From: Thermoleophilia bacterium SCSIO 60948
GTDB lineage: Bacteria > Actinomycetota > Thermoleophilia > Solirubrobacterales > 70-9
Reading direction: 5' to 3'
DNA: 64,000 bases
NCBI GenBank assembly: GCA_021496505.1
Contig: CP053031.1
Span: 1,914,001-1,978,000, forward strand
A program made the position numbers and the translations under genes. Positions 43,158 through 54,613 of the stretch are shown here, in pieces. The first letter of the stretch is position 1. Every line of letters starts with the position of its first letter. The notes beneath the pieces are model-generated. The model was not told where the DNA came from. It made no database searches and saw nothing but the letters and a program-made list of their open reading frames with translations.

Positions 43158-43466
43158 GTGACGCCGCACGGCCAGAACCCAGACCGGACCCCCAGCAGTC
43201 GGGATCCGGGTCCGCCGTACCTCCCCTTGAACATGCCGGACTGGTTCGAATATCAGTTCCTCGCAAATGGGGCTTGGTGGGGCGAAGCCCGATGCCTAGC
43301 CGCAGATTTCCATCGGAACGATGACGGCAGCTACGTCGCGTCGACGCCGGGCAGTCCGATCATCTTTCGCTGCATCGCGCTCGGACCGGGCTGGTTCATC
43401 CATGCCGACGGCGGCGGCCAGCTCTACACCTACCGCCTCGTCGACCTTGGAGTTCCGCCGGAATGA
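43158..43466 (+). CDS. Small unrecognised protein, 102 residues
   Basis: A 102-residue protein not recognised. The first 25 residues are Pro/Arg-rich; the rest (MPDWFEYQFLANGAWWGEARC to VDLGVPPE) is rich in Trp, Phe and Tyr and looks like a small beta domain. GTG 43158 is used; an ATG at about codon 26 could be the real start. Its stop overlaps the ATG of the next gene (ATGA), so it is coupled to the conserved FFDPDNG protein. It opens the lower-GC defence island. Confidence 0.5.
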   Translation: MTPHGQNPDRTPSSRDPGPPYLPLNMPDWFEYQFLANGAWWGEARCLAADFHRNDDGSYVASTPGSPIIFRCIALGPGWFIHADGGGQLYTYRLVDLGVPPE

Positions 43467-44195
43467 AGGACCAGTACGTCAGCGACGTCAACGACTACCT
43501 CAAGTACGGGCTGCTCCGAGCGATCGTTCGCGGCACCCCCTCAAAACGCACGCTCTACGTCTGTTGGATGCTGACCGAGGACGACCAAGGCCCCGACGGG
43601 CGAAAACTTGGCTACCTGGATGACCCAGAGAAGTTCCGGGGGAACGATCCAGTCCTCTTCGACGAACTGGTCAGGCTGGTGCGACAGGACCAGCGTTCGG
43701 TTCGGAGCATCGCGGACTCACCGGTCCTTCCGGCCGGCACCGTATTTCACTCGGACATCATTCGTGACGACTTCGAAGGTCGCTCGTCGAACCTCCGCTC
43801 AATGCTCGAGCGACGTCCCAGTAAGCCCATCGTGTTCTTCGATCCCGACAATGGAATCGAGGTCGAGTCGGAGGGTCGGGCGGAAGGGATCCAGCAAGTA
43901 CGTTCGCTGGGAAGAGATTGAGGAGATCACGGACGATGGAATCGCAGTTGTCTACCAGCACTCATCAAGACCCCAGGGCGGCATGGACCAGCACGTCCGT
44001 GGCCTCCTCAACGAGTTAGAGAAGCGCCTACCGAGTCATAGAGGGTTTGCGGTTCGCGGGCCGACCACCAACTTCTTGCTCGCAGTCCCCACACAGGAGG
44101 CGAAAGACCTGGAGAAGGTGTTGTTGACCTTCTGCGAGCAGTGGCAGTGGGGGCGCCCTATCTGGCTCCAAAGCTCGGGCGCCGAGTTCGCCTAG
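43463..44195 (+). pseudogene. Conserved FFDPDNG-family protein, interrupted by a one-base frameshift
   Basis: Two overlapping frames make one protein of about 243 residues. Frame 1 runs from ATG 43463 (MKDQYVSDVNDYLKYGLLRA) through VFFDPDNGIEVESEGR; frame 2 supplies RKGSSKYVRWEEIEEITDDG and the C-terminus to 44195. Skipping one G in the GGG at 43878-43880 restores EGRRKGSSKYVRW, a string I know from uncharacterised proteins of this type. Without correction, frame 1 ends at 43921 as a 152-residue product. It could be a sequencing error, a true mutation or programmed frameshifting; a G run is a common place for the first. The function is unknown. Confidence 0.68.
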
Positions 44196-44214: not shown

Positions 44215-45114
44215 CTAAGAGGTCGGCTCCAGGGTCAGGTCGGCCACCAACATCGCGTGGTCGCCGCCCGCTTCGATCACCTGATCGAGGATCGTCTCGA
44301 AGCGCTGCAGTTTGAAATCCGGCGTAGCCCACATTGAGTCAAAGCGGCGTTCAAAGTTCTTTCCGCGATAGGTCGCTGCTAGGAGTTCATCGCTTGTCGG
44401 TTCCCGTTCGGCGCCGAAGTCATCCCGGAACAGATCTCTCCCGCGATGAACGGGGTTCAAGCCCAGCAGCGCGTGCATCTTCTTGACGCCTGACCTGTCC
44501 TCGCCCCAGTGGAAGCCAACGCTGTCGATGCTCTCTTTGAGGGGCTCGTTCGCATCTATCCCGAAGACGAACGGCTCAGCGATCGTCGTCATCTCTTGCG
44601 CCACCGCACCGTAGAACAGCGGCTTGCGCTCGTGCACCTTCACCCGTCCGACCGTGCCAGTCCCGGGCGTCGCATGAAACGAGGCTGCGGTGAAGCTCCC
44701 TTGATCAGAGCGGACCTCGGCGAGAACTGACCTCGCCGAATACCGCAGGGCCAGTCTCTCCGGCATAGAGCCGAAGTCCAGCGGCTTCGGTTCCCTGTAC
44801 GCGGCCTCGAGAACCTCCCAGCCGAAGGCCTTCGGAGGGATTCGTCGTCGGGACACGACCTCGAAACCGCGCTTGACCGCGATGGCACAACCATCGGGGG
44901 GAAACGCTCGGCGCGGAACCTCTGGGTCGCAATGCTGGGAGAAGACCACCTGCATCCCAGTCGCTTCCTTGAGGAGGTCGAACCATGACCTTCGACACTC
45001 CTGAAGCAGCAGCACGTCGCAGTCCTTCGAAGCCGCGAGCGTCAGGAGGTCGCGCGGATGCTGAGCCTGCGTGGCAAAATAGGCGCGCAGATTGAGTGAG
45101 CCGATGCGGATCAC
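44215..45114 (-). CDS. Endonuclease/exonuclease/phosphatase (EEP) family protein
   Basis: A 299-residue EEP-fold hydrolase with the complete metal set: Asn in GSLNLRAYF, Glu in LLLQECRRSW, Asp-x-Asn in GIDANEPLKES, and Asp-His in GGDHAMLVADL. Relatives include AP endonucleases, DNase I and phosphodiesterases. GTG 45114 overlaps the upstream stop (GTGA); upstream in-frame codons lie inside that gene. It is the last gene of the ten-gene leftward island run, so DNA cleavage or repair linked to restriction is plausible. Confidence 0.83.
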   Translation of the reverse strand: MIRIGSLNLRAYFATQAQHPRDLLTLAASKDCDVLLLQECRRSWFDLLKEATGMQVVFSQHCDPEVPRRAFPPDGCAIAVKRGFEVVSRRRIPPKAFGWEVLEAAYREPKPLDFGSMPERLALRYSARSVLAEVRSDQGSFTAASFHATPGTGTVGRVKVHERKPLFYGAVAQEMTTIAEPFVFGIDANEPLKESIDSVGFHWGEDRSGVKKMHALLGLNPVHRGRDLFRDDFGAEREPTSDELLAATYRGKNFERRFDSMWATPDFKLQRFETILDQVIEAGGDHAMLVADLTLEPTS

Positions 45115-45797
45115 CGGACCACCTCCGTCAGCGGAACGCGGTCCGCGTTGACCAGTTCGACGACGCAGGCACGCAACTCGTGTCCCGGATAGGAGTCGAT
45201 GGGCTGGGGGTCGCCGATTGCGACCGTGCGGACGGCGGTGGGTACGGCGGTCGGTTCCGGGCCACCCCAACCGACATGCCGGCTGAATTCCTTCCCGTGT
45301 CTCGCTAGGAGCTCAGGAATCGAATGGACCCGAGTCTCGGCGTCCTGCCTAGCGAACAGCTCGCCCCCAGGTCGAAGTTTGAAGTCTTCGGATCGCCGCG
45401 CAACGCATCCGAGGAACCCAGCTCGCGCCGGGCCGTCCAATAGGCAGCAGACCTTCAACAGATCGAACAGCTGGTGGTCGATGTCCCACGCCTTCAGTTC
45501 GCCAGCGAGGTCGACTTCACCTGATTCGCGCGTCACGACAACGTCAATCTCGCTGGCAGGACGGCTCCAATTCGCGAGGCCGCTCAGGACTCGATCGGCC
45601 TCGACTTGCACCTCAGCGAGACCCGACTCCTCGTAGGCGCGTCGAAGTCCATCGACGAAAGCTGGCGCCAACTCCTCTCTCTCACGGATGCCCTTCTCTA
45701 CGCCGCGACCGTCGGTTCGAACCACAGCCCCGGCAGCCGTTGCCGAAGCGAGCTCCAGAATCGCATGGGCCGTCGGTCCACCGAGGCCGTTCGGCAT
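45111..45797 (-). CDS. Putative PD-(D/E)XK-fold nuclease
   Basis: A 228-residue protein not recognised by name. Asp85 in SEIDVVVTR and Glu100-Leu-Lys102 in LAGELKAW make the D-(x)14-ExK spacing of PD-(D/E)XK nucleases, and the following helix (HQLFDLLKVCCLL) fits the fold. ATG 45797 overlaps the stop of the Mug-like gene (TGATG), and its stop overlaps the EEP start. A nuclease role is inferred from motif spacing only. Confidence 0.5.
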   Translation of the reverse strand: MPNGLGGPTAHAILELASATAAGAVVRTDGRGVEKGIREREELAPAFVDGLRRAYEESGLAEVQVEADRVLSGLANWSRPASEIDVVVTRESGEVDLAGELKAWDIDHQLFDLLKVCCLLDGPARAGFLGCVARRSEDFKLRPGGELFARQDAETRVHSIPELLARHGKEFSRHVGWGGPEPTAVPTAVRTVAIGDPQPIDSYPGHELRACVVELVNADRVPLTEVVR

Positions 45798-46297
45798 CAG
45801 CGCCACCACTCCTTGAGCTCCTCAAGCGCGGCGGCCACGAGCTCTCGTCGCGCCATCGGACCCGGCATCACGAAGGCCTCGGCACCTGCGAGAGGCCTCC
45901 CCGGACGGAGCCCGTGCCCCCCGAACCTCCCGAGAAGCGCCTCAGCAGAGCGCTTGAACGTGAAGATCACACGGGGAATCTCGAGCTTCTCGAGCTTCGC
46001 CAGGAGCAGCCTACGCCCGTGCTCGAACTCGCTGGCGGGAATGCCGTCGGCCCGCGGAGTCGGCCGCTTCACGACATCGGTGAAGCCGAGGCCGGCGCCG
46101 AACGCACGGTCGTCCTCGTAGCCGGATCCTGTCGGAACGACACTAGCCGTTTCCAAGCGGCGGAAGAAGGTCTGCCCAACCCTGCCCTGGTAGTAGTGGC
46201 CCGCCTCAACGCTCACCGGCGAAGGGTTGATCCCGACGACCACTCCCCGTAGCCCCGGCGCCAGCAGATCGGCGAGCGTTTCTACCTCGACGCCCAT
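45797..46297 (-). CDS. Mug/TDG-like uracil-DNA glycosylase family protein
   Basis: A 166-residue protein with the motif VVVGINPSPVS (residues 19-29), which in Mug/TDG enzymes carries the catalytic Asn, and YYQGRVGQTFFRRL as the second conserved segment. The usual PNPSG motif near the C-terminus reads MPGPMARRE, so substrate choice or activity may differ. It would remove deaminated or mismatched bases. It overlaps the preceding small gene by 16 bases, in a restriction-modification operon. Confidence 0.72.
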   Translation of the reverse strand: MGVEVETLADLLAPGLRGVVVGINPSPVSVEAGHYYQGRVGQTFFRRLETASVVPTGSGYEDDRAFGAGLGFTDVVKRPTPRADGIPASEFEHGRRLLLAKLEKLEIPRVIFTFKRSAEALLGRFGGHGLRPGRPLAGAEAFVMPGPMARRELVAAALEELKEWWR

Positions 46298-46653
46298 CCA
46301 GTCCTCAACCGCTCGGTGCCCGTCGTCGCCGAGCTGTCGGGTGACAACAGGTTCGGCCGATGTCGTGAGGGTCGAATGCTTTTCGTTAGAGGGTCAGTCC
46401 TCCGCTCCACGGAGATCAGACCGCGTTGAACCAGCTCGTCGAAGTCGCTACGGGTAAAACCATCGCCCCCGCCCGACCAATCGCGGATGCGAAACCCGAT
46501 TTGTCGGATCCGCCCACGTAGCTTCTTCTGCTCGTTTCGTTCTGCCGTCGACTTCTGTCCCAGGAGGGCGCGGATCTCGTCCGCTTCGGCGCGAGAGAAG
46601 CTGGCCCGCCCCTTCAAGAAGGCCTCCACCGGTCGCGCCGGTAGGCGTCCCAC
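46282..46653 (-). CDS. Small unrecognised protein downstream of hsdR
   Basis: A protein of up to 123 residues with a helical, charged first half (RAEADEIRALLGQKSTAERNEQKKLRGRIRQIGF) and a compact end (FTRSDFDELVQRGLI) before a Pro/Arg-rich tail. It looks like a small nucleic-acid-binding protein, but the family is not recognised. The start is either GTG 46653 or GTG 46629, both inside the 3' end of hsdR; its stop lies inside the Mug-like gene. These overlaps suggest strict co-translation. Confidence 0.55.
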   Translation of the reverse strand: MGRLPARPVEAFLKGRASFSRAEADEIRALLGQKSTAERNEQKKLRGRIRQIGFRIRDWSGGGDGFTRSDFDELVQRGLISVERRTDPLTKSIRPSRHRPNLLSPDSSATTGTERLRTGWASR

Positions 46654-49600
46654 TCGATCTCTGGCAACTCCCGCGTGCTGTTGTTCATTCGCACCCAGAA
46701 CACCTCACGCCGATCGCTCATCGAAGCCATCACCGGTCTCGAGGACCGCGCGACATCGACTCGGCACACCTCGCGCCCGGCGATCGCATCAATTCGGACC
46801 CGCGTGCTCATCGCCGCGGTGTGCCCGATCGCGCCGATCAGGTGAGTCGTCAGCCAGTTGACCAGCCCGTCGGCGCTCTGCGGCTTCACGAGGGGTAGGT
46901 CCGAACCGAGCCCCAGGACCTGACGATCGTCTGAAACACCGATCAGCAGCGTGCCTCCATCCGCGTTGAGAAAGCCGGCGACCGTCTTGACGATCGCGTC
47001 CTCGATGCGCTTGTCCTTGGCCTCCTCGCGCAGGTTCCATCGAGCGGTTGACTTGAACTCGACTGCGAACCCTTCGTCGCCCGCGATCAGCTCGTCGGTT
47101 GTCGCCGCGAAGAAGGCGCCGTCGCCGCGCAGCTGCTCGGCGACGAGCTCGGCGAAATGACGATCGCTTCGGATCTTCTCGAGGACCGTCGCCGAGACGG
47201 CGTCGACGTCGACTGGCCCAGCCTCCGCATCCACTGTGTCGCGCTCGACCGGCGGGGTCACCGAGGCGACGTCTCCGTAGACGCTTCCGCCGTCGTCATA
47301 GAACGCGGCGAAAATGTGGTCGAAGACGATCCCCGTCTTTCGCTCCCAGGTTTCGGGGTCGTAGGCCTCCGGCAGGTCCTCGAGCACGTCCTTGACGAGC
47401 ACCCGCGCGGACTCCCGGGTCTCGGCGCGCTTGCGCCAATCGAGCACCAGCCGGTCCTGGATCTGCCCCATCAGCTTGCGCGCGATCCGCTTGACCTCGG
47501 ACCGCTCATCGTCGGTCAACTCAGGATCGGGCTTGGTCAGCAGGTCGAAGACTGCGAGCTCGGGCTCCGAGAGCCCCTCGCGAACCGTGCGCTCCTCCTC
47601 CTCGGAGAGCCCGCGAGACAGCTCCTGCAGGCGGCGAAGCAGCTCATCGACGTTGAGACTGCCGGCGTTGTACTCCTCGATCAGCTCCCGGAAGCGAACG
47701 ACGAGGTCGTGTCGCGTCGGGTTGCGCTCGACCGCCCGCTCTACCTGCGCTCGCAGCCGGCCGCTCAACCGTTGCGCCTCGGTCCGCCGCTTGCCCGCAG
47801 CCCGCGCCACGAGCGCCTCGAAGTCGATCTCGTTGAGGTCGATCAGCGAGTCCGCGTCGGCACCGTCGGCGGCTGCTCGAATCACGTACTCCTCCGCCCC
47901 CACCGATCGATCGAGCAGCTCCTGCACCGAGCCAGCGACACCCGAGAGGTCGGGCGCAGGATCGAGTCCGCGGATCGTCTCCGCCAGGTTCCTCGCGACG
48001 CCGACGATTCGCACGTGCGCGTTCGCCGCCGGGTCGGGCAGGATCGCCGCGAACAGCCGCCGCACCCGCGCCGAGCGCTCGAGGTAGGCGCGGCGGGTGA
48101 CGTCGTCGATCAGCAGCGCCTCGACCGAAGCGTCACGCAGTGCGATGAACTCGAATCCGCTCGCGCGAGCCAGCGCTTCGAGATCGACGTCCCAACGCTC
48201 GCAGAACTCGCGCAGCTCGCCGATCTCCTCTTCGAGCTCCTCGACTAGCGCCGCCTTGTCGCGGATCACCTCGAGCTCGGCGTCATCGCCCTCGCGCGCT
48301 GCCGCATAGATCGCCAGGGCCTCCTCAAGCCGGCGGAAGACCCCGACGTAGTCGACGATCAGCCCGTTCTCCTTCTCGGGGAAGACGCGGTTGGCGCGCG
48401 CGATCGTCTGCATCAGCGAGTGATTTCGCATCGGGCGGTCGAGGTAGATCGTCGAGCACGAGGGCACGTCGAAGCCCGTCATCCACATCGCGCAGACGAA
48501 GACGAGCCGGAACGGGTCGGCCGCATCCTTGAATCGCTCGTCGAGGTCCTCGTCGAGCATCTTGCGCCGGTGCGGTTCGATGTCGAGCCCGGCCTCGCGC
48601 ATCTCGGCGATCTCGTTCTGTGATTGCGAGACGACGACCGCCGTCTCGGTGTCCTCCATGAACCGGATCTGCTCATCCACCCCGACCCGCTCGAGCTCGG
48701 GTAGCCGGGCCGCGCGCTCGCGCAGCTCATCCAGGTGCTTCGCCCACTCCTCAGCAACGAGGTCGTGCATTCGCACCGCCGTCGCCTTGTCGATCGCGAC
48801 GAACATCGCCTTGCCGAGGAAGCCGCGGCCGACGAAGTGGCGGACGAGATCGGCGGCGATCCGCCGCAGCCGCTCCGGCCGGGTGATTAGCTGGTACTCG
48901 GTCGCGAAGCGCCGGGAGAGCGCCTGCTCCTGCGTTTCGTCGAGCTCTGCCTGCTCGAGGATCCCCGTCAGCTCCTCGTCGAAGCGCTCGTTGATGATCT
49001 GAAGCTCGGGGATCCGGTTCTCGTAGAACAGCGGAACCGTCGCCCCGTCGGCGATCGAGTCGCGGAAGTTGTATGTCGAGATGTAGTCGCCGAAGACCTC
49101 TCGCGTGCGCTCGGCCTCGGCGCGGATCAGCGGCGTCCCGGTGAAGCCGAGGAAGTCGGCGTTCGGCAGCGCTTGACGCATGTTGAGCGCGAGCCGCGAG
49201 TACTGGCTGCGGTGCGCTTCATCAGTGATCACGATGACGTCGTCGCGCTCCGAGCAGACCGGCATCTCTTCTCCCCTCGCCGGGCGGAACTTGTGGATCA
49301 GCGTGAAGACGTAGCGGTGGTTCTCGCCGAGCAGCCGCCTTAGATGGGCCGATGAATCGGCTTGAAGGTGGCCCTCGACGACACCCGCGTCTTTGAACTC
49401 GTCGTACAGCTGGTCGTCGAGCTCGGCGCGGTCGGTGACCATCACGAAGGTCCAGTTGCCGGGCTCGCGCCGCAGCACCTTCTGGGTGAAGAAGAGCATC
49501 GAGAGGCTCTTGCCGGAGCCCTGCGTGTGCCAGAACACGCCGAGCCGCCCATCGCGGGTCGCTGGATCGCGAAGCGCGCGGATCGCGGCGTTGACTCCGA

Positions 49601-50417
49601 GGAGCTGGTGGTTCTGGGCCAGCACCTTGGTCAGGCCGCCGGGCCGCTCGAGGTAGGCGACGAAGTTCTCGACCGAGTCGAGCAGGTGCGCCGGCTCGCA
49701 GAGGCCGCGAATCGCCGTTTCGAGCGAGATGACACCCGCCTCCGACTCCTGGTCGACCCGCTTCCAGTCTCCGAAGCGCTCCCACGGCGCGAAGGTCGAG
49801 CCGACCTTCGTCTCCGAGCCCGTCGAGAGGATGACGAAGGCGTTCGGCGTGAACAGCTGCGGCACCGCGTCGCGGTAGTCGGTCAGGTTTTGGCGGTAGG
49901 CCTGCTCGACCGAGCGATGCGACGCCTTCAGCTCAAGCAGCACGAGCGGAATGCCGTTTACGAAGCAGACGATGTCGCAGCGCCTCCGGTGCATCGGTCC
50001 GGTGACCCAGAACTGGTTTACGACGAGGAAGTCGTTGGCCGAGGGGTCGTTCCAGTCGATCAGCCGGACCGTCTCGGTCGATCGCTCACCGTCCTCACCG
50101 ACGACCGTCAACTTGACCCCGTCGCGAATCAGCTTGAAGACGGCCTGATTGGCGCGCGTTCGGTCGAGCGTCGATCTGTCCTGCATCAACTCGGCGATCG
50201 CGAACTCGATCGCCGCGGGGCCCACTTCAGGGTTCAGCTGGGCGAGCTTCGGCTCTAGCCGACCCCGTAAGACGACCTGCGACTGGTCGGTCCGCCCCAG
50301 CTCACCGGTCGCCGCGACCTCGCGATAACCGTTGACGACCTCATAGCCGAGCGACTCCAGCAGCGCCACGGTCGGGCGCTCAACCAGCTCATCCTCCGAG
50401 TAGTCCTGTGGGCTCAC
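46614..50417 (-). CDS. hsdR: Type I restriction enzyme R subunit with C-terminal AlbA-like domain
   Basis: A 1267-residue HsdR. The N-terminal nuclease has Asp148 and Glu162-Leu-Lys164 (LVLLELKAS); the translocase has Walker A TQGSGKS (about 298-304), VITDEAHRSQY (397-407), GFTGTPL and later helicase motifs (MWMTGFDVPS; QTIARANR). After the usual helical C-terminus there is an extra domain from about residue 1110: EFKSTARWNLREE, AGFLNADGGTLLIGVSDD and EVFWVRMNNSTREL match the AlbA-2/Schlafen-like putative nucleic-acid-binding domain. ATG 50417 overlaps hsdS (ATGA). It cuts unmethylated DNA after translocation. Confidence 0.95.
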   Translation of the reverse strand: MSPQDYSEDELVERPTVALLESLGYEVVNGYREVAATGELGRTDQSQVVLRGRLEPKLAQLNPEVGPAAIEFAIAELMQDRSTLDRTRANQAVFKLIRDGVKLTVVGEDGERSTETVRLIDWNDPSANDFLVVNQFWVTGPMHRRRCDIVCFVNGIPLVLLELKASHRSVEQAYRQNLTDYRDAVPQLFTPNAFVILSTGSETKVGSTFAPWERFGDWKRVDQESEAGVISLETAIRGLCEPAHLLDSVENFVAYLERPGGLTKVLAQNHQLLGVNAAIRALRDPATRDGRLGVFWHTQGSGKSLSMLFFTQKVLRREPGNWTFVMVTDRAELDDQLYDEFKDAGVVEGHLQADSSAHLRRLLGENHRYVFTLIHKFRPARGEEMPVCSERDDVIVITDEAHRSQYSRLALNMRQALPNADFLGFTGTPLIRAEAERTREVFGDYISTYNFRDSIADGATVPLFYENRIPELQIINERFDEELTGILEQAELDETQEQALSRRFATEYQLITRPERLRRIAADLVRHFVGRGFLGKAMFVAIDKATAVRMHDLVAEEWAKHLDELRERAARLPELERVGVDEQIRFMEDTETAVVVSQSQNEIAEMREAGLDIEPHRRKMLDEDLDERFKDAADPFRLVFVCAMWMTGFDVPSCSTIYLDRPMRNHSLMQTIARANRVFPEKENGLIVDYVGVFRRLEEALAIYAAAREGDDAELEVIRDKAALVEELEEEIGELREFCERWDVDLEALARASGFEFIALRDASVEALLIDDVTRRAYLERSARVRRLFAAILPDPAANAHVRIVGVARNLAETIRGLDPAPDLSGVAGSVQELLDRSVGAEEYVIRAAADGADADSLIDLNEIDFEALVARAAGKRRTEAQRLSGRLRAQVERAVERNPTRHDLVVRFRELIEEYNAGSLNVDELLRRLQELSRGLSEEEERTVREGLSEPELAVFDLLTKPDPELTDDERSEVKRIARKLMGQIQDRLVLDWRKRAETRESARVLVKDVLEDLPEAYDPETWERKTGIVFDHIFAAFYDDGGSVYGDVASVTPPVERDTVDAEAGPVDVDAVSATVLEKIRSDRHFAELVAEQLRGDGAFFAATTDELIAGDEGFAVEFKSTARWNLREEAKDKRIEDAIVKTVAGFLNADGGTLLIGVSDDRQVLGLGSDLPLVKPQSADGLVNWLTTHLIGAIGHTAAMSTRVRIDAIAGREVCRVDVARSSRPVMASMSDRREVFWVRMNNSTRELPEIEWDAYRRDRWRPS

Positions 50418-51613
50418 GCAGCTTCGGGCTCGAGCACGCCCAGGTCGATATCCGAGATGTCGATGCGACCGGTTACGAGGCGCGGGACGAGGAGGTCGCG
50501 GGTTTCGGCGAGCTGGCGGTTCGTGGCGAGTAAGGCGCTGGCACCGCGAAGCAATGGGTCGACACTAGCTGCGAACCGAGCGAGCAGCTCCTCATCGGGC
50601 AGAAGGACCTGCGCCTGCTCGAAGTCGCGTGGCCTGACCGCTGGGTACGCCGCCCCGGTCGCGCGCGAGACTAAGTACCCGGCGAACTCCGGTGAGTCGG
50701 TGCAGAGGTACAGGTACGCCGAGGGGACTCTGCGAGGCGACAAGACCGCTAGACCTGTCGAGACCACCGTCCCTGGGTCGGGGTTATGGACGAGACCATG
50801 CGCTCGCCGGTTCGGGCGAACTGTTGACCAGATCGTGTCGCCATCGCAAACCAAGCGACGCGCCCGCCCCGGAGCGTCAGCCGCTGGCATCACAGTCGGG
50901 TCATCCAGCTGACCGACTCCAACAGAAGAGATATCCAGGTAGCGAACGGGCTCTGGGAGGTCAGCCTTGCTGACCTTCAGTGGGTTGACGGAAGCGACCT
51001 CACGTAGGGCGACGCTTTGCCAGTGCGATGGCACTGCCCCGGTGGAATCGCTTCTTCGGCCCGGAAACCGAAATCGCACAAACCACTCCCGATAGAGCGA
51101 CCGCGCGAGCCGCTCAAGCAACTCAATCCGCCGCACATTGATCTCGATGAGCTCGTCGAAGGCGGAAAGGAGAGCGGCTACGCGGCGTTGAACGGAGCGT
51201 GCCGGCAGCCTTACCCGCAACCGATGGAGGTGGTTGCGATTGACTCCCGGGACCGCTGATGCGGAAGACCCGTCGATCGCGACTGTGCGCAGCATGTAGG
51301 CAATGAATCGTTCGTCATTCCCCTTGAAGTCTCGGACCCATAGCGAGGTATTCAATGGCCAGTAGGGATCGCGGATCAAATGCACCTCCCCGAGCGAGCC
51401 GTACCGTCCAATTACGACACCAGGCGGCCGCGCCTTGAACTCAGCGTGACGGCCAGTGATCCCCGCCGACGAGACAACCGGATAGGGGCCGGACTGCCGT
51501 TTGCGCTTCGGCAAGTCGAATCCACGTTGGAGCGTCACGACATCGCCGAGGGGTAGCTCAATCCAGTCGGATCGGCTCGCCTGCCTTCTCTTGATCGAAC
51601 TCTCGTCCATCAC
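50414..51613 (-). CDS. hsdS: Type I restriction-modification specificity subunit
   Basis: A 399-residue HsdS with two target-recognition domains separated and followed by conserved helices. The first starts WIELPLGDVVTLQRGFDLPKRKR, the second HWQSVALREVASVNPLKVSK, and each ends in a coiled helix (LLSAFDELIEINVRRIELLERLA; VDPLLRGASALLATNRQLAETRDLLVPRLVTG). It recognises a bipartite DNA sequence and recruits HsdM and HsdR. It lies 55 bases after hsdM. Base composition is lower in GC than in the flanking core genes. Confidence 0.94.
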   Translation of the reverse strand: MMDESSIKRRQASRSDWIELPLGDVVTLQRGFDLPKRKRQSGPYPVVSSAGITGRHAEFKARPPGVVIGRYGSLGEVHLIRDPYWPLNTSLWVRDFKGNDERFIAYMLRTVAIDGSSASAVPGVNRNHLHRLRVRLPARSVQRRVAALLSAFDELIEINVRRIELLERLARSLYREWFVRFRFPGRRSDSTGAVPSHWQSVALREVASVNPLKVSKADLPEPVRYLDISSVGVGQLDDPTVMPAADAPGRARRLVCDGDTIWSTVRPNRRAHGLVHNPDPGTVVSTGLAVLSPRRVPSAYLYLCTDSPEFAGYLVSRATGAAYPAVRPRDFEQAQVLLPDEELLARFAASVDPLLRGASALLATNRQLAETRDLLVPRLVTGRIDISDIDLGVLEPEAA

Positions 51614-51668: not shown

Positions 51669-53213
51669 TCAGTTATCGAGAAGCCTGGTGAGCACTCCGT
51701 CGATCCCGTCCTCGAGCTCGCGCGCGTTGGCGCCGAGCGTTTGCAGCTCGGCGTGCGCCGCCGCGAGCTGCTCGTCAAAGACCTCGTCGTCGAGATCCTC
51801 GACCTCGGTCCCGACGTAGTGACCCGGGTTGAGGCTCCAGCCCTGCTCCTCGATCTCGGCGCGAGTCGCGACCCTGCAGAGGCCTTCGATGTCGGCGTAG
51901 GCCCCATCGGGGAAGCGCTCGTCGAAGAGCTCGTTGGGGCCGTCGGCGAACTCAGGCTCCTCGCCTCGGTAGAGGCGGACGATGTTGGCGATCAGCTCGC
52001 GCTGCTCGTCCGTGAAGTCGCGGTGTGCGCGGTCGATCTGATTGAAGATCTGGCGCGCGTCCACGAACAGGATTCGATCGGAGCGCTCGCTTCCGACCTT
52101 GCCGCGATCGAAAAACCAGAGCGTCACCGGCAGGGTGACGGTGTAGAAGAAGTTCGACGCTACCGCAACGATGACGTCGACCAGCCCATCTCTGATGAGC
52201 CTCTGGCGGATCGCCGCCTCGCTGTGGCGCGCGTCGGAAGCCGAGTTGGCCATCACGAAGCCGGCGCGACCGGCCTCGTTCAGCGCCGCGGCGAACATCT
52301 GTATCCAGATGTAGTTGCCGTTGTCTGCGTTCGGTAGGGCCGGAAACCGCGGATCCTCTTCGAGCTTCGCCTTGTCGATCTTGTCGACGTTGAATGGCGG
52401 GTTGGCCATCACGAAGTCGAAGCGGCCGAAGCTCTCGTGGCGATCCTCGTAGTAGCTGTTGCCCTCGAGGATGTCGCCGTCGAGGCCGTGGACGGCGAGG
52501 TTCATCCGCGCGAGACGGACCGTCTCGCTTGTCTTCTCCTGGCCGTAGATCGAGAGCTCACGCCCCGGCGAGCGCTTATGGCGCTCGATGAACCGCGCCG
52601 ACTGCACGAACATGCCGCCTGAGCCGCACGCCGGATCGAGGATCCTTCCGTGGTAGGGCTGAAGGATCTCGACTATGAGCCTGACGATCGACGTCGGTGT
52701 GAAGAACTCGCCGGCCTTCTGCCCCTCTGCCATCGCGAACTGGCCGAGGAAGTACTCGTAGATCAGGCCGAACGCGTCACCCTCGAGGTGTTGCGTGTAG
52801 CTGCTGATGTAGCGCAGCAGCGAGGCGATCGTCGAGTTCTCGATCGCACTGTAGTTGCGCGGCAGGGCGCCCTTGAGCGAGTCGTTGTGCTCCTCAATCT
52901 GGTGCATGGCCCCGTTGACGGCCTGGCCGAGGTTAGCGCCCTCGGGTCGGCTGAGTAGGCCACTGAACCTGGACTCCGGTGCGAGGTAGATGACGCCGCG
53001 GGCGTGGTAGTCCGACGGGCCGATCCTGCGGCGTGTCGAGGCGCCCGCCTCAAGTTCCTCTTGGACGCCGTCGAACTTGACCTCCGCGAAGCGCAGGAAA
53101 ATGAGGCCAAGGACTGGAGCGCCGTACTCCGAGGCCTTGAGGCCGGAGTTGGCGCGTAGTTGATCGGCGGCAGCCCAGAGGCGATTTTCGAGTTCAGCGA
53201 GATCCGGCTGCAT
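51669..53213 (-). CDS. hsdM: Type I restriction-modification N6-adenine methyltransferase
   Basis: A 514-residue HsdM with an N-terminal helical bundle ([34 protein letters not shown]), S-adenosylmethionine motif [10 protein letters not shown] (193-202) and catalytic motif NPPF (271-274). It methylates the adenine of the site read by HsdS, protecting host DNA. ATG 53213 is chosen at the first conserved helix, eight bases after the stop of the small membrane-protein gene. Confidence 0.95.
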
Positions 53214-53221
53214 CGTCCGAG

Positions 53222-53683
53222 TCAGGTTGACGCCACCAGGACCGCGACGGTAATGATCGATGCGACGAGCGCCAGGTAGAAGACGCGGAGAATAGGACTG
53301 AACACCACGCTCCTCCACGCGAGAGGAACGGACTCCTTGTCGCTTAGACCCGAGAGGAAACCGCTCGCTGGCGCCGCCATGAAGAACGGGGGCACCTTCG
53401 GATCACCGCGCCGGACGCATTCGTAGAGCGCTCGAAATTGCCGCTCAGCCCTCAAATAGTAGGAATCCAAGCCCCAGAAAGCGACAACCGGAACCAGACC
53501 AACAAGCGCAAGGCACCACCGCGACTGAGCGACCGCGAAACCAAGAGCAGCACCAGCCAAGGTCAATGCCCACCCTTTGACGTAAAAGCCATCGTTGCCC
53601 AGTCGTGTAATCACAGCTTGGATCAACTCGAGGTGCTTCATCAGCTCCTCGGGCGAACGATCCCCTGGCCGTTCCTGACTCAA
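53222..53683 (-). CDS. Small three-helix membrane protein, possible effector
   Basis: A 153-residue protein. An amphipathic N-terminal helix ([15 protein letters not shown]) is followed by membrane helices at about 37-53 ([17 protein letters not shown]), 56-74 and 129-151, with a cytoplasmic loop [20 protein letters not shown] know similar uncharacterised proteins, but not a function. TTG 53683 is chosen because it overlaps the HIT stop by four bases; an ATG at codon 15 is the alternative. Membrane proteins of this size are common effectors next to TIR genes, hence the suggestion. Confidence 0.68.
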
Positions 53684-54129
53684 CCTAGATCCTGGCGAAT
53701 CTCGTGCGCCAAAGCGGAAGTTTCGACAACCGGCGATCGTGATGGCCAAATGGGCCCAAACGAGTCACCCTGCCAGCGCGGGACAAGATGAAAATGCAGG
53801 TGGAAGACAGACTGCTCGGCCGCCCTTCCCCGGGAGGTAATGAGATTGATTCCCTCGCATTCGAGCACTCGCTCGAGCGCATGACCAACCTCTTGGATCG
53901 CCTCAAAGAGACTGGCACTAAGGGGGCGCGATACCGCAAAAAAATCGGGAAAGTGTCCCCGCGGCAGAACCAGCGTGTGGCCCCGAGCCGCCGGCGCCAG
54001 CGGAAAGATCGCCAGCCATTCCTCCCTGCTGGCGATGACCTCCGATTCGGGCTCGCCGCCTTGAGACAGATTGCAGAACTCGCAATCTGAATCAAACGGC
54101 TCCTTCGCTAGAGCCCTATCGACCCGCAT
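53680..54129 (-). CDS. HIT-family nucleotide hydrolase
   Basis: A 149-residue histidine-triad protein: HLHFHLVP (His110, His112, His114) is the catalytic motif, LVLPRGHFPDFFAV the usual preceding strand, and Cys16/Cys19 (CEFC) a possible zinc site as in Hint/GalT-like members. HIT enzymes hydrolyse nucleoside phosphoramidates, dinucleoside polyphosphates or adenylates. ATG 54129 overlaps the TIR stop by 14 bases. Its position between a TIR gene and a membrane-protein gene suggests a role in making or removing a nucleotide signal, which is inference. Confidence 0.86.
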   Translation of the reverse strand: MRVDRALAKEPFDSDCEFCNLSQGGEPESEVIASREEWLAIFPLAPAARGHTLVLPRGHFPDFFAVSRPLSASLFEAIQEVGHALERVLECEGINLITSRGRAAEQSVFHLHFHLVPRWQGDSFGPIWPSRSPVVETSALAHEIRQDLG

Positions 54130-54613
54130 CCCTCGCCGCTGCCTCGATCCAGGCTCCCACATTGTTGTAACCGTCGTCGAGAATCCAGTCGTAGGTTCGG
54201 TAGAACCGCGAAAGCGTCTGACGACCGAAGAACCCACCGCCATCGGTCGTTTCGAAGTAGTCGAACGGATTTGGGCCAGCGCCCTTAACCTGGCCATTCT
54301 CTCCTCGTATCCCGTTGATATGGATTCCGAGCATCCCCATGGAGTCGGCGTGACTCTTCTGGATTTCGTAGCCCACCCATTCTCGCGCGTAGGTCTCGGA
54401 GCCGATCAAGACAACGGTCACGCCAGCACCACGCATTCCATCATCGATCAGACGTTGTATCGCCGCGGCGCCTTTGGTCTTGGCCTCCTCCCACAAAGAG
54501 TGGTCATAGAACCCGACCTCCTCGGCGTTTCGCTTCAACGTGTTGCTCTTCCGCACGACATTGGCTCGCCATACGTCGTCGTAGTGAAAGCTTGCATAAA
54601 CCTGTCTTGACAT
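54116..54613 (-). CDS. TIR-like domain protein (Thoeris ThsB/DUF1863 type)
   Basis: A 165-residue single-domain protein. VYASFHYDDVWRANVVRK at the start, FYDHSLWEEAK, VTVVLIGSETYAREWVGYEIQKS and MLGIHINGI follow the TIR-like (MTH538/DUF1863) pattern of ThsB, with Glu83 as the likely catalytic residue for NAD-derived signal synthesis. No ThsA (SIR2-SLOG) gene is present; instead HIT and membrane-protein genes follow. ATG 54613 has an ideal AGGAGGT site at a seven-base spacing. It is the first gene of the ten-gene leftward run. Confidence 0.82.
   Translation of the reverse strand: MSRQVYASFHYDDVWRANVVRKSNTLKRNAEEVGFYDHSLWEEAKTKGAAAIQRLIDDGMRGAGVTVVLIGSETYAREWVGYEIQKSHADSMGMLGIHINGIRGENGQVKGAGPNPFDYFETTDGGGFFGRQTLSRFYRTYDWILDDGYNNVGAWIEAAARDAGR

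Follow-up and report, generated by a model that had tools for sequence, protein, structure and literature searches.

Base excision has recently been recognised as an anti-phage strategy and is known from a few Brig enzymes. Brig1 is a defence glycosylase of uracil-DNA glycosylase (UDG) type that removes bases from phage DNA and has homologues mostly in Actinobacteria (PMC11078745), and Brig3 is a defence-island glycosylase that also removes phage DNA bases (PMC13160076); the abasic sites left by these enzymes block phage replication (PMC11078745, PMC13160076). The closest structural match of Brig1 is a family 4 UDG, with Glu in the pocket (PMC11078745). Glycosylases and restriction also meet in R.PabI, which is itself a restriction enzyme with the HALFPIPE fold, and whose restriction is enhanced by AP endonucleases (PMC10273834). 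Our literature searches yielded no type I operon with a glycosylase of TDG/Mug type.

The locus described here lies in a 64,000-nt stretch of the genome of Thermoleophilia bacterium SCSIO 60948, referred to as the window. By description, its glycosylase resembles Brig1 and Brig3 in being of UDG type and in lying in a defence island, and is set apart from Brig1 (family 4-like, Glu) as a family 2 protein with Asn. The link between a glycosylase and restriction-modification (RM) is shared with the R.PabI base-excision glycosylases, but in the window the type I system is intact and the UDG-superfamily protein comes as an addition to it. With the MUG/TDG enzymes (UDG superfamily family 2, including human TDG and E. 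coli Mug) the window protein has the Pfam UDG domain and the GINP motif in common, whereas its clade is paired or fused with a small domain, sits sometimes in defence loci and carries its own motifs. The following features were assigned, in order of transcription:

51669..53213, minus strand: hsdM, N6-adenine-type methyltransferase subunit (PADLOC MTase_I 1.1e-205; NPPF motif)
50414..51613, minus strand: hsdS, specificity subunit (Pfam Methylase_S 2.3e-11; PADLOC Specificity_I 4.2e-67)
46614..50417, minus strand: hsdR (Pfam HSDR_N, SWI2_SNF2, SLFN_AlbA_2; TIGR00348 1.1e-146)
46282..46617, minus strand: small-domain ORF, with a TTG start overlapping the hsdR stop; the domain is seen fused elsewhere
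45797..46297, minus strand: TDG/Mug-type DNA glycosylase (GINP catalytic motif, MPGPMAR motif 2; Pfam PF03167)
45111..45797, minus strand: orphan, putative PD-(D/E)XK nuclease (EIDV...GELK...Q; ATG 45797 overlaps the glycosylase stop)
44215..45114, minus strand: EEP-fold protein, TDP2/nocturnin-like, with a His-type active site (AF2 fold matches, conserved residues)

As in the known type I system, the R, M and S genes are all present, and HsdR, HsdM and HsdS are encoded in one operon, making the RM system complete (the likely start of hsdM is ATG 53213; the longest ORF begins at 53318). Unlike the usual type I RM, HsdR carries a Schlafen AlbA_2 domain at its C-terminus (residues 1118-1251; Pfam SLFN_AlbA_2 2.1e-13), and an extra tail follows 3′ of the operon. 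After hsdM-hsdS-hsdR come, head-to-tail and with no gaps, the small ORF, the glycosylase, the orphan and the EEP gene, and the positions of the four minus-strand ORFs that the initial annotation had placed directly after hsdR were confirmed. The hsdS/hsdR junction is a GTGA overlap. Upon re-reading of the starts from the sequence, each junction of the tail was found to overlap as well: hsdR and the small ORF at TTGA (TTG 46617, upstream GGAGG), the small ORF and the glycosylase over 16 nt (ATG 46297, upstream GAGG), the glycosylase stop and the orphan at TGATG (ATG 45797, upstream AAGGAG), and the orphan and the EEP gene at GTGA (GTG 45114, upstream GGAGG). These overlapping starts, led by Shine–Dalgarno (SD)-like sequences, bear out the proposed translational coupling of the tail to hsdR, although two starts had to be moved, that of the small ORF to TTG 46617 (not GTG 46653) and that of the orphan to ATG 45797 (not 45809).

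Immediately upstream of hsdM and on the same strand lie genes for a ThsB-type TIR protein that also matches PDC-M50B, for PDC-M50A and for a HIT protein. GC content is 0.60-0.67 over about 43.1 to 54.6 kb versus 0.69-0.72 in the flanks, and the low-GC stretch, which ends beside trpA, is a defence island with type I RM, TIR and PDC-M50 genes. Within it, PDC-M50A and the ThsB-type TIR (PDC-M50B) at 53222-54613 may be a defence pair, interrupted by the HIT gene. At 43463-44195 on the plus strand, a gene facing the operon end appears to be split by a frameshift near 43880 and has no Pfam match. PADLOC, NCBIfam and PHROGs did not recognise the tail proteins, apart from weak Mug-like matches.

The glycosylase matches Pfam PF03167 (UDG) with E 7.7e-12 and 45.9 bits against a cut-off of 24.3, which upholds its assignment to the UDG superfamily. 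Among solved structures the closest family is TDG (E 4.6e-13 with the single sequence against PDB, 1.6e-18 with a profile), followed by Mug, and the profile alignment with human TDG (E 1.6e-18) extends through motif 2. Judged from its sequence, the protein is a relative of Mug/TDG and not Mug itself, because its scores fall far under the cut-offs of the curated NCBIfam mug models (49.4 of 402.6 bits for TIGR00584 and 35.3 of 144 for NF007570). Motif 1, GINP, keeps the catalytic Asn (N24) in alignment with TDG and E. coli Mug, so that the enzyme is potentially active. Motif 2, MPGPMAR, aligns with MPSSSAR of TDG, with different middle residues; Mug has NPSGLSR. Across 299 searched genomes of the class, identity drops in a sharp step: five hold relatives at 52-59% (one of them two copies), single genomes follow at 43% and 39%, and Mug proteins range around 30-38%. 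In a maximum-likelihood tree the glycosylase falls, apart from E. coli-type Mug, into a clade of 18 (support 100/99) with an inner group of 11 (95/92). The clade carries the motif GINPxPxSVxAGHYYQG, and the inner group MPGP(Y/F/M). MPGPM as an individually altered specificity was rejected: its replacement of PNPSG gives no argument for altered base choice, since it is common to the clade and TDG-like. No second family 2 member of the superfamily was found in the host, which encodes family-4-like and family-5-like UDGs elsewhere (families assigned by motif).

Several members of this clade adjoin defence genes. In one genome (G461, L106:990-6488), GajA, GajB, a 193-aa ORF and PD-Lambda-3_B (Ymh) are followed in one direction by a clade glycosylase; on Arthrobacter-type plasmids (L058/L051) it adjoins two methyltransferases (PglX-like), MTaX1 and an AAA ATPase (AAA_5); and at L047 a broken ribbon-helix-helix fusion copy adjoins a type III RM system. 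PADLOC was empty at eight other clade loci, and most close relatives (L039, L040, L042-L044) have ordinary neighbour genes or lie on short contigs. Defence genes adjoined 4/13 clade loci when the window was counted and 3/12 when it was not; of 15 Mug control loci (119 neighbours) none had an RM or Gabija neighbour at 1e-30, which gives p = 0.035 and, for the count excluding the window, a non-significant p = 0.075. Control neighbours gave only RecD-like, PDC-S68 and mad3 matches. These counts, in which recCBD (L105) was not scored as defence, come from crude gene calls on loci picked by similarity, several of them on short contigs. The recurrence of clade glycosylases beside defence systems is thus suggestive, with a small enrichment, and the recurring unit is the glycosylase, not the four-gene set.

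In genome G451 (L105:979-10678), the small domain and the glycosylase are encoded in a single open frame; recC lies 10 nt downstream of it, and ORFs resembling recB and recD come next. In stand-alone relatives, (M)...HRVxEEWMG precedes MGxxVETL, a start codon lying a few residues further upstream. The window glycosylase frame upstream of its ATG reads DDGHRAVEDWMG, and the GHRAVEDW extension is coded at 46298-46321; back to the stop at 46396 this frame contains no ATG, GTG, TTG or CTG, and the small ORF occupies another frame. Because of the one-frame fusion in G451 and the start-less but conserved GHRxxExW extension, one split fusion gene probably accounts for both the small ORF and the glycosylase, the small ORF being its N-terminal half. 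The simplest reading is that a one-base shift, whether natural or introduced in assembly, broke up a former fusion; a TTTT run lies nearby at 46380. The separate small protein of the initial annotation is present as an ORF, but looks like half of the glycosylase gene. The small domain is also found N-terminal to a GIY_YIG_2 nuclease domain (L063:8614-9513).

The orphan has no match in Pfam, NCBIfam, PADLOC or PHROGs, and its sole relative found is a 526-aa protein in genome G210 (E 4.6e-5, 32% identity). EID89...E104xK106...Q113 is kept in both proteins, and this conservation, over two sequences only, suggests that the orphan belongs to the PD-(D/E)XK nucleases. The AF2 model, built from the same two sequences, has a mean pLDDT of 50.9, and a fold search with this poor model gave no significant match. 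Hence the label ‘nuclease-like’ given earlier to 45111-45797 is backed by the D...ExK...Q motif, but not by any family match.

For the EEP protein the Pfam match is weak (4.6e-5, just below the cut-off), and the AF2 model (pTM 0.81) matches EEP enzymes at Z about 18-21: TDP2 at 21.4, PDE12, CCR4-type enzymes and nocturnin at about 20, ExoIII at 18.9 and APE1 at 18.3. In the model there is a mild preference for TDP2 as the closest fold, with neighbouring rows <1 Z apart. TDP2, nocturnin and CCR4-type enzymes, the best fold matches (Z 20-21), have the His-type active site in common with the EEP protein, which is only 15-20% identical to them. Across three EEP sequences N8, E39, H147, D187, N189, D259, D285 and H286 are invariant, and the fold and the metal ligands N8, E39, D187, N189, D285 and H286 are as in the ExoIII/APE1 type; fold matches and retained catalytic residues thus bear out the EEP assignment. 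In AP endonucleases the active site contains a Tyr (Y109 in ExoIII, Y171 in APE1). At this place 3/3 sequences have FHA (His147), as positioned by sequence motif and not by residue-level superposition. Because His, not Tyr, occupies the active site and the fold is closest to TDP2, the EEP protein is not specifically an AP endonuclease, and the proposal that it cuts abasic sites gains no specific support. One relative (52%) is encoded in Salsipaludibacter albus, where a gene for a DISARM DrmD helicase lies about 5 kb away on the opposite strand, and the other shows 27-29% identity.

The four-gene set was found in no other genome in class- and phylum-level genome searches. A scan of 85k species genomes with the EEP alignment returned Salsipaludibacter albus only; on plasmids the orphan, EEP and small domain were not found, among phages only Mug of Klebsiella prophages matched, and IMG/VR yielded nothing. 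The closest relatives of the AlbA_2-fused hsdR (77% in G103, 75% in G121 and 50-53% in G005, with the match spanning the C-terminal region) have no such tail: in G103 the gene 3′ of hsdR resembles an NYN/PIN nuclease by eye, and in G121 the contig ends 170 nt downstream of hsdR, and those 170 nt do not encode the small domain. The refuting observation named in the initial annotation, that in relatives the genes are mostly unlinked, is largely what was seen as regards linkage to hsd, although the glycosylase relatives are sporadic and not plainly housekeeping.

Our best explanation, which we hold tentatively and at a little under even confidence, is that a restriction operon has taken on an accessory module for base excision. 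Downstream of hsdR, an otherwise unremarkable type I hsdMSR operon would have gained a cassette coupled to it in translation: the small domain with its TDG-like glycosylase (broken by a frameshift or read as a coupled ORF pair), then the putative PD-(D/E)XK nuclease and last the EEP phosphodiesterase. The glycosylase would excise a non-canonical or mispaired pyrimidine in foreign DNA, leaving abasic sites that stall replication, and the two phosphodiesterases may then cut or trim the damaged DNA. In this way the reach of the operon would be extended to DNA that HsdR cannot cut, e.g. modified phage DNA (cf. Brig1 and Brig3). Substrate, target and cooperation of the tail proteins are predicted. 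The suggestion that the tail targets phage DNA is consistent with the coupling, the retained catalytic Asn, the defence island and the recurrence of the clade, but the specific three-step set is unsupported: the search for the tail elsewhere gave no second genome. Against such a module, the glycosylase might be inactive, since only a joined frame would restore its N-terminal extension.

It is nearly as likely, and a real possibility, that unrelated DNA-metabolism and defence genes have simply gathered 3′ of hsdR and are co-transcribed by position, with no joint pathway. The set is unique to the window genome, relatives of the EEP protein and of the orphan are very scarce and in neither case linked to hsd, sister glycosylases occur in several different contexts, and the AlbA_2-fused hsdR of G103 precedes a different gene, as if this were a cargo slot. 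However, the unbroken run of four overlapping junctions, each led by an SD-like sequence, suggests that coupling was selected for, and the pairing of small domain with glycosylase recurs.

Repair of the host chromosome, with the glycosylase and EEP protein mending deaminated or mismatched bases or restriction-induced ends, is distinctly improbable. The classical role of TDG/Mug enzymes is the repair of T:G and U:G mismatches, TDP2, which the EEP protein resembles in fold, cleans blocked 5′ ends, and a sister gene lies upstream of recCBD (L105), all of which count in favour of repair. This reading becomes less likely because HsdM is of the N6-adenine type (NPPF) and makes no 5-methylcytosine to deaminate; repair of 5-methylcytosine deamination arising from the cognate methyltransferase was rejected on this chemistry. 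Moreover, family-4-like and family-5-like UDGs are encoded elsewhere in the host, and sister genes are sporadic in the class, some linked to Gabija or methyltransferase systems. Thus the initial suggestion that the tail repairs self-damage is unlikely.

Least probable of all is a decaying remnant, in which a natural frameshift broke the fusion and left the glycosylase non-functional (or an assembly error disrupts an intact gene), since the glycosylase ORF has lost none of its catalytic motifs and has an ATG with a GAGG-type ribosome site, and the downstream overlaps are intact, even though the GHRxxExW extension persists without a start codon near the TTTT run and the neighbouring gene also looks frameshifted.

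The accessory-module reading can be extended to the clade as a whole, a step that we regard as rather unlikely: TDG-like glycosylases with the small, possibly DNA-binding domain would be a modular anti-phage add-on to ATP-driven nuclease systems, namely type I and III RM, Gabija and RecBCD-type complexes, marking foreign DNA with abasic sites. If this TDG/Mug-type clade does act against phages by base excision, as the Brig enzymes do, and docks on restriction and Gabija operons, family 2 of the UDGs would be linked to immunity, and the clade would provide candidates that can be tested directly on phages with modified pyrimidines, as well as a tool-like enzyme, possibly with a new base specificity.

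Some further arrangements were observed around the clade. In a sister group (L013-L016, family f6), GKTP replaces GINP and the catalytic Asn is absent, so that these may be inactive or altered glycosylases. The 193-aa ORF of the Gabija locus (L106) shows a GIY-YIG-like motif by eye and no Pfam match, and the fusion of the small domain with GIY_YIG_2 (L063:8614-9513) lies close to an IS110 transposase gene. At two loci (L045:1543-2628 and L046:8745-9863) the clade glycosylase stands behind a ribbon-helix-helix/UPF0175-like N-terminus, and the L045 fusion directly follows a PIN-like gene, which resembles a toxin-antitoxin-style arrangement with a glycosylase domain.
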